Of a DNA stretch of 64,000 nt, positions 59,737-64,000 are shown one piece after another. The first letter of the stretch is position 1. Each line of letters opens with the position of its first letter. The notes under the pieces were generated by a model. The model made no database searches and was not told the origin of the DNA. It saw only the letters and a program-made list of their open reading frames with translations. This DNA comes from Sinomicrobium oceani (GTDB lineage: Bacteria; Bacteroidota; Bacteroidia; Flavobacteriales; Flavobacteriaceae): NCBI RefSeq assembly GCF_900119185.1, contig NZ_FPJE01000024.1:1-64000 (forward strand), in the 5' to 3' direction. A program made the translations under genes and the position numbers.

Positions 59737-59982
59737 ATGAACAAAAAGAACAAAGGCACTAAAAAGCCGTTTTTCGCCAATTTTCTGGAGCATCAGGTTT
59801 CCGGAGATCAAAAAGAAAATGCTCAGGGAGGTATTACTCTGAAGTACCCTTCCGACCAGGAAGAGGATGGTAACGGGGGGCCTATGCCTATTATTACCAA
59901 ACCTGTCCTGGACAATGATGGTGGTGGGGATGTTACCCTGAAGTATCCTTCGGATGACGACGAAGCAGGAGACCTGCTGTAA
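59737..59982 (+). CDS. Microviridin-type graspetide precursor with two core peptides
   Basis: 81 residues. The leader helix PFFANFLEHQ (11-20) corresponds to the PFFARFL motif by which microviridin ligases recognise precursors. Two cores follow: TLKYPSDQEED (34-44) and TLKYPSDDDEA (67-77). Against microviridin B numbering (T4, K6, S9, D10, E12, E13), core 1 keeps all six ring-forming residues: T34, K36, S39, D40, E42, E43. Core 2 keeps five, with D75 in place of E12. Each can form two esters and one Lys-Glu amide, giving a tricyclic cage. A glycine-rich linker carrying TKPVLDND separates them. The two ATP-grasp ligases follow. Confidence 0.93.
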   Translation: MNKKNKGTKKPFFANFLEHQVSGDQKENAQGGITLKYPSDQEEDGNGGPMPIITKPVLDNDGGGDVTLKYPSDDDEAGDLL

Positions 59983-60066
59983 AATTGATTAAAGTTTTCC
60001 GTAACAGGCAACGGCTTTCACAAGCTGTTGCCTTTTCGGATATTGTCCGCAAAACGATCTGCCCCG

Positions 60067-61038
60067 ATGATTTTATTTCTTACGCACAGTGAAGATCACT
60101 ACACCATAGATATTGTCCGGAAACAATGTGAGGCCCTCGGCAAAAAAGTATTCAGGATGAATACCGACCTTTTCTCGCACCGGGCGCGCTTCGGATACTC
60201 CTGCGACAACAGCAGTAAAGACCTTTACTGGTCGGTTGACAACAACAGCTTTTCGGTCAGAGATATCGAAGCCGTATGGTACCGGAAACTCTGGGCTATC
60301 AAGCCGCCCAGAGATCTTGCCCCGGAGTATCACGCCATTTACCTCCAGGAATACCAGACCATGCGCAACATTTTTTTTGCTTCCCTGAAGCATGTCCCCT
60401 GGATGAACCCTATAGCTACAGACCATGCCATCAGTCAGGATAAATTTGGGCAACTGCAGGTTGCAGCACGTCACGGTCTCGATATTCCCAAGAGTTTGTT
60501 CACTAATGATCCGGACAGAGCCAGGGAATTCTTTTACCGGGAGTGCAGAAAAAAAATGATCGTCAAACTTCACGGCTCGCTGTCGCGAAGCATGCGTGGA
60601 GACACTCCTTTTTTTCCTACTACAGCCATAGAAGAAAAAGATGTGGAGCGCCTGGATGTTCTTCCTTTATGCCCCATGATTTTTCAGGAAATGATCCCCA
60701 AAAGTTATGAACTCCGGATCATTTACATCGACGGTATGTTTTACACCGGAAAAATCAACACCAGCAACACTATGCCCGGAAATACGGACTGGAGAACAGC
60801 GACAGCTCCGGATATTGCCTGGGAACCCTACACCTTACCCGAAACGATCTGCAAGTGCCTGACTGCCATGATGCGCGAGATGGGATTGTTTTTCGGAGCC
60901 CTGGACATGATCCGCCACCAGAACGGATCATACATTTTTCTGGAAGTCAATCCGCAGGGCGAATGGGGCATGCTGCAACGCGATCTGCAGTATCCCATAG
61001 GCGAAACCATTGCCAAAAAACTAATTGCAGGCATATAA
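60067..61038 (+). CDS. Graspetide ATP-grasp ligase, MvdC-like
   Basis: 323 residues from the ATG at 60067 (MILFLTHSEDHYTIDIV); upstream in-frame codons to 60028 lack family resemblance. MvdC/D-type N-terminal domain (FLTHSEDHYTID), WYRK motif near 75, and C-terminal ATP-grasp: KLHGSLSRSMRG (ATP Lys), YIDGMFYTGKI and LEVNPQGEWGM, whose Glu and Asn bind Mg. The THSxDxxTID opening is nearer MvdC (omega-amide forming), but the ester/amide split between the two ligases is inferred. It lies 84 bp after the precursor. Confidence 0.85.
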   Translation: MILFLTHSEDHYTIDIVRKQCEALGKKVFRMNTDLFSHRARFGYSCDNSSKDLYWSVDNNSFSVRDIEAVWYRKLWAIKPPRDLAPEYHAIYLQEYQTMRNIFFASLKHVPWMNPIATDHAISQDKFGQLQVAARHGLDIPKSLFTNDPDRAREFFYRECRKKMIVKLHGSLSRSMRGDTPFFPTTAIEEKDVERLDVLPLCPMIFQEMIPKSYELRIIYIDGMFYTGKINTSNTMPGNTDWRTATAPDIAWEPYTLPETICKCLTAMMREMGLFFGALDMIRHQNGSYIFLEVNPQGEWGMLQRDLQYPIGETIAKKLIAGI

Positions 61039-61058
61039 CGCCTGCCAAATCTCTTCTC

Positions 61059-62066
61059 ATGCAAAAAATACTGATCATTACCCATTCCGAGGATAATGCT
61101 TCCATTGCCACGGTTTCCGCTTTTATCGAAGAAACCGGGGCCGAGGTCATTCGTTTTAATGTAAACGAATACCCCACGAAATATCGTCTGAGCAGTCTGT
61201 TTGAAAACGGGAAATGGACAACCGCTCTCGATACCGGGACAACACTGTGGTCTTTACACGATGTCACTGCAGTATGGTACCGGAGAAGTCACCATCTTGC
61301 CAAAGGCCTCGATACCATCCTGGACCATACTTTTCTTCCCAGCGCACAGAAAGAAATCAGGCGTACCTTTTTCGGTATGCTCGAAAGCATGCCGTGTTTT
61401 CAGATAGACCGTTTCAGTACCTACCGCAGGCTCGACAGCAAGGAAGAGCAAATGAAAATAGCTTCTTCCATAGGACTCCTTGTTCCCGATACCTGTATCA
61501 CCAACGATCCCGAAGCCGCAAAGCGTTTCGTACGTAAGTATCCGGACGGTGTCATTGCCAAAATGCAAAGTTCGTTTGCTATCTACCAAAACGGTATGGA
61601 ACACGTAGTCTTTACCAATATCGTATCCGAACAGGATCTGGAAAACATCGACACGCTGCAATACTGCCCCATGCAATTTCAGGAAAAACTCGAAAAATCA
61701 TGCGAACTACGGGTAACCATTGTGGGCGATGCTGTATTTACCTATGCCATAGATTCGGGCAAAACACTTCATGCCCGGGTAGACTGGCGCCGGGAAGGAA
61801 ATACTCTTCTTAACGAATGGAAACCCTATAAGCTTCCGGGAGATATCAGGAAAAAATTACTCCGGTTAATGGATATTTACCACATTAATTACGGCGCCAT
61901 TGATATTATCGTTACCCCTGAACAGGAGTATTATTTTCTGGAGATCAATGCTGCGGGAGAATATCTCTGGCTGGATCGCCTGGCTCAGGGCGCTATCTCG
62001 AGACATCTTGCCGAAGTGCTGACCGGGCGTGCATACCGACGGTACACGCCCCTTTTCGAAGAATGA
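61059..62066 (+). CDS. Graspetide ATP-grasp ligase, MvdD-like
   Basis: 335 residues from the ATG at 61059 (MQKILIITHSEDNASIATV); the longer open frame upstream overlaps the first ligase and is not family-like. WYRR motif near 73, ATP Lys in GVIAKMQSSF, and Mg-binding LEINAAGEYLWL near 305. The ITHSEDN start resembles MvdD, which forms the omega-esters first in microviridins; the assignment is inference. It shares the pattern but little identity with the first ligase. Last gene of the cluster, 20 bp downstream. Confidence 0.85.
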   Translation: MQKILIITHSEDNASIATVSAFIEETGAEVIRFNVNEYPTKYRLSSLFENGKWTTALDTGTTLWSLHDVTAVWYRRSHHLAKGLDTILDHTFLPSAQKEIRRTFFGMLESMPCFQIDRFSTYRRLDSKEEQMKIASSIGLLVPDTCITNDPEAAKRFVRKYPDGVIAKMQSSFAIYQNGMEHVVFTNIVSEQDLENIDTLQYCPMQFQEKLEKSCELRVTIVGDAVFTYAIDSGKTLHARVDWRREGNTLLNEWKPYKLPGDIRKKLLRLMDIYHINYGAIDIIVTPEQEYYFLEINAAGEYLWLDRLAQGAISRHLAEVLTGRAYRRYTPLFEE

Positions 62067-62142: not shown

Positions 62143-63921
62143 TTACATATCAAATTTATAGGTCACTCCTCCGAGGATCTGGAAGCCCTGAACCTGATAA
62201 TTCATCCATCTCGTATATTGGTTATTCGCTATATTATTTGCCTTCACAAAAACCGACAACTGATCATTGAAGCGATATCCGGCACGTGCATTGACATCAA
62301 AATAACTATCGAGCGTAACCACCCGGGGGTCTCCGCCGAGCAGTGAACCGGGAGTGTACAGATCTTTCCGTTTCCCGACAAAAAACAGGTTAGCTCCTGC
62401 AAACCAGTGTGCCCCGATCTGGTAATCGCCAAAGAAAGACCCCTGAACTACCGGAAGGTTCCAGGCCTCCTGTTCGTTGTCCGCATCATACCCGGATATC
62501 TGAGCATTTACGCCAAGGGTGAGGTTACGGTCTATATCCGCATGAAGTTCACCGAATGCCGAATATGTCGTTACATCATCATACACCACACCAAAAGAGT
62601 TTCCGTATACGTATCCCTGTCCTTCATTGCCACTGACATTAACGGCATTGGCACGGAACAGAGGTTTGTTGTTTTCGGAACGGTACGATCCCTTTACATT
62701 ATACCCTACGGTAGAGGAAAGTTTTCCTTTCATCCCAACATACGCATCATATTGCCTGTCCGTAGGTGTTATTCCCAGGGTAGGTGACACAAAGAAGTTA
62801 TCCTGAACCAGGTCGTAATAAGAATTCTGATCCAATCCGCCTTCTACACCCCCATACACTGTCACGAATTCCTCAACAAGCCGGTATGAAGCTTTAACCT
62901 GCGGATAGATATACACATCATTATCGTCATTCTCAATATCCATTCCGTAAAATACAGAAGCTCCGAGGCTAATACTGAAATCTTCTCCGTCGATCAGGAG
63001 GTTGGGATTAACCCCCAACAACAGGTTTCCGTATTTTATTTTATCATTGGTAAAATAACCCCGGTCAAATTCTCCTCCGACATAGTCCGCAAATATTTTG
63101 GCGGTAATCAGCTCCTGCCCTACGGGAAATTGAAATGACGGATTGAAAACCAACCTGTTTTCACCTGAATCATGAGCATCCCAGAACCTTCGCAGCGTAA
63201 GTTCGGCTCCCGTAAACACCGATTCGTCAATAGCCTCTATATTTCCGCCTACGGAAGCGGTATAATACGTTTGTCTCTCATCGATACTGTTAATCTCGGC
63301 CTGGTCAAAACCTGCCTCCTCCGGCAATCCGTACCAATTGTAGATCTGGTGACGGAATTCCCCGTTCACTCCCCAGCGATAGAAACGCCCGGCATTGCTG
63401 TAGGATGCATCGAGACGGGTATCAAAAAATTTTGTGTCCAGTTCCATTTCATCAAGCTGTCCCTGGGCCGAATGGTGATTAAGACCGATGTCAAAAGATT
63501 CATCTTTACTGATCGCTCTGCTCGTGTAAAAATCCAGTAAAGCCGTGCTGTAATTGCCAAGCCCGAGAGACACATAAGTATTGTAAAGCATATCCCGCTT
63601 TTTCCTTTCAACCCCTGAGACTTTTCCTTTGGCAGGAACAAATGTAGACGCTACGGGCACCGAAAAAATGCTGTATTGAATTTTCTTTTTCTTTAATAAA
63701 GTGGAATCGTCAAGTGCCGGAACATCCCTCACTTTGAATGCATCGGAAATATTGGCCTTATACGGACGTACCACATCTACGGTTTCTGTTCCTATATTTT
63801 CCTTCTCCTGGGCAAATCCGGCCGACATTGCTAAAAATGCCAATGCTATCGTAATCAGCCCGGTTCCCTTTGGAATCCGATGAACTTGTTTTGAACCGGA
63901 TTTGCGAAGACTACGATCCAT
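62143..63921 (-). CDS. TonB-receptor-like outer-membrane beta-barrel protein
   Basis: 592 residues from the ATG at 63921 (MDRSLRKSGS); an upstream in-frame ATG at 63960 is possible. Signal peptide (LITIALAFLAMSAGFAQ), a short periplasmic start (ETVDVVRPYKANISDAFKVRD), then many amphipathic beta strands and a terminal YKFDM. No full TonB plug is visible, so it is a barrel-only relative of TonB receptors. It is convergent with the graspetide operon; no functional link is shown. Confidence 0.8.
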   Translation of the reverse strand: MDRSLRKSGSKQVHRIPKGTGLITIALAFLAMSAGFAQEKENIGTETVDVVRPYKANISDAFKVRDVPALDDSTLLKKKKIQYSIFSVPVASTFVPAKGKVSGVERKKRDMLYNTYVSLGLGNYSTALLDFYTSRAISKDESFDIGLNHHSAQGQLDEMELDTKFFDTRLDASYSNAGRFYRWGVNGEFRHQIYNWYGLPEEAGFDQAEINSIDERQTYYTASVGGNIEAIDESVFTGAELTLRRFWDAHDSGENRLVFNPSFQFPVGQELITAKIFADYVGGEFDRGYFTNDKIKYGNLLLGVNPNLLIDGEDFSISLGASVFYGMDIENDDNDVYIYPQVKASYRLVEEFVTVYGGVEGGLDQNSYYDLVQDNFFVSPTLGITPTDRQYDAYVGMKGKLSSTVGYNVKGSYRSENNKPLFRANAVNVSGNEGQGYVYGNSFGVVYDDVTTYSAFGELHADIDRNLTLGVNAQISGYDADNEQEAWNLPVVQGSFFGDYQIGAHWFAGANLFFVGKRKDLYTPGSLLGGDPRVVTLDSYFDVNARAGYRFNDQLSVFVKANNIANNQYTRWMNYQVQGFQILGGVTYKFDM

Positions 63922-64000
63922 AGCCGATGATTTTCCGTTATGACTATATATACTATACATGTACGTATGGAATTTTAGTTATTATTAGGATTTACGGAGG

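Follow-up and report, generated by a model that had tools for sequence, protein, structure and literature searches.

Precursor and ligase genes

The window, that is, the whole stretch of 64,000 nucleotides that we analysed, contains a small operon of three genes on the forward strand, in the order precursor, MvdC-type ligase, MvdD-type ligase. The precursor gene (59737..59982) encodes 81 amino acids (MNKKNKGTKKPFFANFLEHQVSGDQKENAQGGITLKYPSDQEEDGNGGPMPIITKPVLDNDGGGDVTLKYPSDDDEAGDLL), made up of a leader, a first core, a linker with a putative single-ring box, and a second core. The gene at 60067..61038 encodes an ATP-grasp ligase of the MvdC/MdnB/CdnB type (323 aa, predicted to form amides) and the gene at 61059..62066 one of the MvdD/MdnC/CdnC type (335 aa, predicted to form esters). 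An earlier note had described this reading frame with its leader motif, its pair of TLKYPSD cores and, downstream, two genes for ATP-grasp enzymes, and all of these, coordinates and length included, proved exact; it made no mention of the linker box, the leader's terminal GG or the hairpin ahead of the ligases. It had also proposed a microviridin-type graspetide operon and, as a check, a search against graspetide families. The search bears this out: the precursor belongs to the microviridin/marinostatin family NF033738 (63.2 bits, cut-off 26) and to Pfam Inhibitor_I10 (33.2 bits, cut-off 21), and the ligases belong to MvdC/MdnB and MvdD/MdnC/CdnC and match solved graspetide ligases. A second NF033738 match on the precursor gene, at 59875-59964, covers core 2. 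Orthologues of the precursor are found in three other Sinomicrobium species and in many Bacteroidota.

The leader carries the helix motif PFFANFLE (aa 11-18, 59767..59790, forward strand), which every precursor of the related loci also has; its counterpart PFFARFL is the ligase-binding element of microviridin leaders (PMC8939145). The sequence combines a PFFARFL-type leader with the core TxKxPSDx[DE][DE] that defines the class, and it does so with two cores.

For the MvdC-type ligase the best solved match is AMdnB (7m4s, E 5e-69, 38.8% identity), followed by MdnB (5ig8, 36.6%). The MvdD-type ligase is closest to CdnC (7mgv, E 5e-119, 54%) and also matches MdnC (5ig9, 42%). In a tree with the solved ligases each of the two genes joins its own type (support 93/90 and 88/81), and the Bacteroidota ester ligases, CdnC included, form one clade with 98/100 support. 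The pairing that marks the chryseoviridin subtype, an ester ligase of the CdnC clade with a CdnB-type amide ligase, is therefore present. Both ligases score below the NCBI equivalog cut-offs (364 bits against 425 for TIGR04185, 417.6 bits against 475 for TIGR04184). The characterised CdnC also misses the MvdD cut-off, with 470.8 bits, so the equivalog cut-offs exclude Bacteroidota members and the misses in the window say little. K168/K167 (K165 of AMdnC), D282/D280 and E-x-N are conserved across the ligases, with a single exception in the C-terminal columns, which is probably a short copy (L009). K165 and D280 of AMdnC are known from mutants to be essential (PMC5934393).

The same genome contains a second, unrelated graspetide-like cluster, L003 (G000:C20, match at 127128-128105). 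It consists of a precursor (L003:1197-1382), a grasp-with-spasm ATP-grasp ligase (L003:1423-2481; TIGR04192, 335 bits) and a SPASM protein (L003:2690-3745; TIGR04193, 357 bits), both matches being over the cut-off. The small GG-leader peptide of this cluster has a C-terminal end in which Ser alternates with Asp/Glu (SFSASASLSASLSLGYTEVDVEVEAEGEAEW).

Cores and linker box

Core 1 reads TLKYPSDQEE (aa 34-43, 59836..59865, forward strand) and core 2 TLKYPSDDDE (aa 67-76, 59935..59964, forward strand); each lies within a family match, core 2 within the second one, and both are complete, as they fit T-x-K-x-P-S-D-x-[DE]-[DE]. In microviridins the rings are numbered as a T4-D10 ester, an S9-E12 ester and a K6-E13 amide (PMC7823629). 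By analogy, the predicted links are T34-D40 (ester), S39-E42 (ester) and K36-E43 (amide) in core 1, and T67-D73 (ester), S72-D75 (ester) and K69-E76 (amide) in core 2.

We collected 33 distinct precursor sequences and used the 27 with multiple cores for all counts of position 12 and of the linker box. Position 12 is Glu in the first core of 22 of the 27 and Asp in the last core of 24. All 19 precursors in which this position differs between cores run from Glu to Asp, and the window obeys the same pattern, with QEE followed by DDE. To judge by their sequences, core 1 and core 2 are not equivalent, and the view of two linked inhibitors taken in the earlier note needs correction on this point. 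Glu12 and Asp12 may act as a constant label by which the ester ligase recognises each core.

The linker contains the box TKPVLD (T-x-P-x-x-D; aa 54-59, 59896..59913, forward strand). A [T/S]xxxxD box precedes the last core in 25/27 multi-core precursors, where 5.5 would be expected with shuffled linker residues; since the sequences are related, this figure is not a formal probability. A conserved C-terminal motif of chryseoviridins, TxxxxDxxxTxKxPSDxD[DE], with linkages determined by experiment, is given in a survey (PMC8939145). The box and core 2 of the window each match their part of this motif, but the spacer between them is seven residues long in Sinomicrobium, compared with the usual three. 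TKPVLD is most likely a third element with a single ring, a T54-D59 ester, as its conservation and its likeness to the chryseoviridin box suggest. Given that the box is conserved and is read as a ring in chryseoviridins, the predicted maximum is seven losses of water and not six. Of the two linked tricyclic inhibitors with up to six dehydrations that had been proposed, the two complete cores stand, while the maximum does not, as TKPVLD had been overlooked.

Hairpin between the precursor and the ligases

Between the precursor gene and the ligase genes there is a stem-loop with a 12-bp stem and a 4-nt loop, followed by TTTT (60006..60033, forward strand; MFE -26.1 kcal/mol, z = -3.6). We found a strict terminator-type hairpin downstream of the last precursor gene and ahead of the ligases in 19/22 loci, with 0.28 expected from shuffles, and after inner precursor genes in 0/11. 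The hairpin of the window, with only four T, fails the strict rule of five T and nothing else. The hairpin sequences are unrelated and differ between genera. The simplest reading would be a leaky terminator or attenuator that gives more precursor than enzyme. Terminator-like hairpins regularly occupy this place in L004-L024 and L031, and never lie between precursor genes. A literature search on such hairpins in operons for microviridins or other RiPPs yielded nothing useful, and inspection by eye of the regions upstream of the four Sinomicrobium precursors resolved no shared promoter motif.

Predicted leader removal and export

The leader ends in a double glycine (aa 31-32, 59827..59832, forward strand), where, by analogy with other GG leaders, a C39-type peptidase is predicted to cut. 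Nearly all related precursors have QGG, KGG or NGG here, an exception being QGS in L014, and a GG motif is typical of class II/III microviridin precursors (PMC13039773). We found no C39 domain on the contig of the window; other contigs hold three strong matches and one weak one. A dedicated transporter, protease or acetyltransferase was sought in the operon and none was found; the two ligases alone are common to all 17 loci.

Predicted target

The specificity of microviridins for proteases is switched by position 5, with far smaller effects from changes at positions 7, 9 and 11 (PMC7823629). The earlier note had argued from the missing W11 that the specificity should differ, which is a weak argument with position 5 as the main determinant and position 11 as a minor one (PMC7823629). 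Position 5 is Leu in both cores of the window, as in microviridin B, and this suggests, by analogy, serine proteases of the elastase/subtilisin type as targets. In three Sinomicrobium species (L004, L005, L022) core 2 has Gln5 where the window has Leu; judging from this Leu/Gln difference, the two cores may aim at different proteases in those species.

Distribution and neighbourhood

The triad of precursor, amide ligase and ester ligase occurs at 16 other Bacteroidota loci, including Flavobacterium, Taibaiella and Chryseobacterium, and is the only feature of the neighbourhood common to all of them. Such family matches, together with the recurrence of the triad on 16 other contigs, are far beyond chance. 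The closest named loci, by identity of the ester ligase, are those of Sinomicrobium pectinilyticum (76%) and S. weinanense (74%). The amide ligase is present in 3/5 other genomes of the genus. Among 395 genomes sampled evenly across the class, five have a precursor over the family cut-off, with the genome of the window counted.

Flanking genes are shared with the window in 2/3 readable Sinomicrobium contexts, namely a gene for a polyprenyl synthase on the upstream side and one for an outer-membrane barrel on the downstream side; their recurrence suggests that Sinomicrobium has had the operon for a long time. The gene for the outer-membrane beta-barrel-like protein (62143-63960, reverse strand) converges on the operon in each of the three Sinomicrobium contexts that we compared and is probably unrelated to it.

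In Taibaiella and in one Flavobacterium, three or four multi-core precursor genes lie in tandem ahead of one ligase pair (L011:5677-6854; L012:5713-6848; L006:5986-6882). Two Taibaiella precursors end in a core SKKxPSDWEDA, which has the cyanobacterial W11.

Proposed mechanism and alternatives

We read the locus as a minimal Sinomicrobium operon for a graspetide of the chryseoviridin/microviridin type, with a seven-ring, GG-processed, protease-inhibiting product and attenuated expression of the ligases, and, going by the sequence, we put the probability of this reading at roughly 0.75. What the sequence shows is the set of genes, the families they belong to, the residues that are conserved and the hairpin; from these we infer the reactions, the ring number, the export, the target and what the hairpin does for regulation, as follows. 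Both ATP-grasp ligases would bind the leader helix PFFANFLE. Asp/Glu side chains would be phosphorylated by the CdnC/MvdD-type ligase and joined as esters to Thr/Ser, twice in each core and once in the TKPVLD box, after which the CdnB/MvdC-type ligase would close each core with a single Lys-Glu amide. The leader would be cut off by a GG-specific C39 peptidase whose gene lies elsewhere, which would also export the peptide with up to seven crosslinks, and the peptide would inhibit elastase- or subtilisin-like serine proteases via Leu at position 5. Meanwhile the leaky terminator hairpin 3' of the precursor gene would keep precursor transcripts above ligase transcripts. A bolder version can be offered only tentatively. 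Here a single peptide would unite a core of class II, a single-ring box of class III and a core with Asp12, and the CdnC-type ligase would close three types of ester ring in a fixed order; the product would be one two-headed inhibitor, 49 residues long and crosslinked seven times. The rule of Glu12 first and Asp12 last would tell the ligase which core it has bound. Asp12 makes one ester ring of core 2 shorter, which we count against our preferred explanation, along with the seven-residue spacer, the lack of a protease or transporter gene in the operon, the ligase scores below the equivalog cut-offs and the four-T end of the hairpin.

The ring number could be lower if, as the earlier note assumed, there are two tricyclic cores only and TKPVLD is a plain linker, so that the product has at most six crosslinks. 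The distance from box to core 2 speaks for this, with seven residues in Sinomicrobium and usually three in the Flavobacterium and Chryseobacterium relatives, and TKPVLD may be without flanking residues that the ligase needs. We nevertheless find it doubtful: the box reads TKPVLD, TSPVLD or SKPVLD in the four Sinomicrobium species, with the hydroxyl donor alternating between T and S only and Asp always kept, whereas the neighbouring linker residues vary, and the element is present in nearly all multi-core precursors, as counted above. It is also conceivable that the cores are released separately by a cut at the second GG (GGG-DV-T), yielding two products, one from core 1 that bears the single ring and one of 17 residues from core 2. 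A GG does precede core 2 in all four Sinomicrobium precursors, in a context that resembles the leader end, and GG cleavage is used by class II/III precursors (PMC13039773). On the other hand, precursors of other genera are without GG ahead of the last core, and the internal GG has no leader-like helix upstream, so that separate release seems unlikely.

The remaining alternatives concern function and enzyme family. The chemistry might be right and the product still be an agent of competition or signalling and no protease inhibitor; the operon is without a target gene or a protease, and a target is not evident from the sequence. This we consider quite improbable, as all graspetides characterised as of a 2022 survey are protease inhibitors (PMC8939145) and both cores carry the substrate-like T-L-K loop, which in microviridins enters the S1 pocket (PMC7823629). 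Finally, weak RimK matches might hint that the ATP-grasp genes come from another family with unrelated substrates (RimK-like, grasp-with-spasm, PEARL or tail-adding). There is next to no chance of this: MvdC/MdnB and MvdD/MdnC/CdnC are best by wide margins among families and solved structures, and the real grasp-with-spasm ligase of the strain is a separate gene that lies outside both clades in the tree. We rejected membership in another family on the family and structure matches and the tree.

Comparison with known systems

The operon is genuine but unremarkable within a family known from flavobacteria and their relatives, and it leaves existing knowledge of the class unchanged. Multi-core Bacteroidota precursors are already an established class (PMC13039773). 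A microviridin-like cluster of the same kind was published in 2023 for Sinomicrobium sp. PAP.21 (S. oceani), with an antiSMASH match to microviridin J (BGC0000593) and without an analysis of the precursor (PMC10112250). For the family-level patterns, that is, the box, Glu12/Asp12 and the hairpin, we found no description in the literature examined. The extra ring box, the order of Glu12 and Asp12 and the hairpin make simple predictions for co-expression. The locus offers a compact two-core substrate with both ligases for the study of how a ligase chooses among cores and acids, and it might supply bivalent inhibitors of elastase/subtilisin.

The closest known system is that of the chryseoviridins (Chryseobacterium gregarium CdnA/CdnB/CdnC), which has the same three gene types, a related ester ligase (CdnC, the 54% match above), a PFFA-FLE leader with GG, and a TxxxxD box followed by a TxKxPSDxD[DE] core. 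Chryseobacterium precursors, however, have several single-ring boxes and one microviridin-like core, often on several precursor genes, whereas the window has one gene with two full microviridin cores, one box and a seven-residue spacer.

Class II is defined by several full cores, and class III, from Bacteroidota, by an end only that is microviridin-like (PMC13039773). As in the class II system AMdnA/AMdnC of Anabaena PCC 7120, the window has more than one full TxKYPSD core per leader (here two), two ligase types and GG (aa 31-32); it differs from AMdnA, which has three cores, by the putative ring box of its linker and by Asp at position 12 of its last core. With the class III chitinoviridins of Chitinophaga japonensis the precursor shares the long core region, the microviridin-like C-terminus, the origin in Bacteroidota and the GG, but in the window a complete microviridin core directly follows the GG. 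In its sequence, the precursor mixes the layouts of class II and class III.
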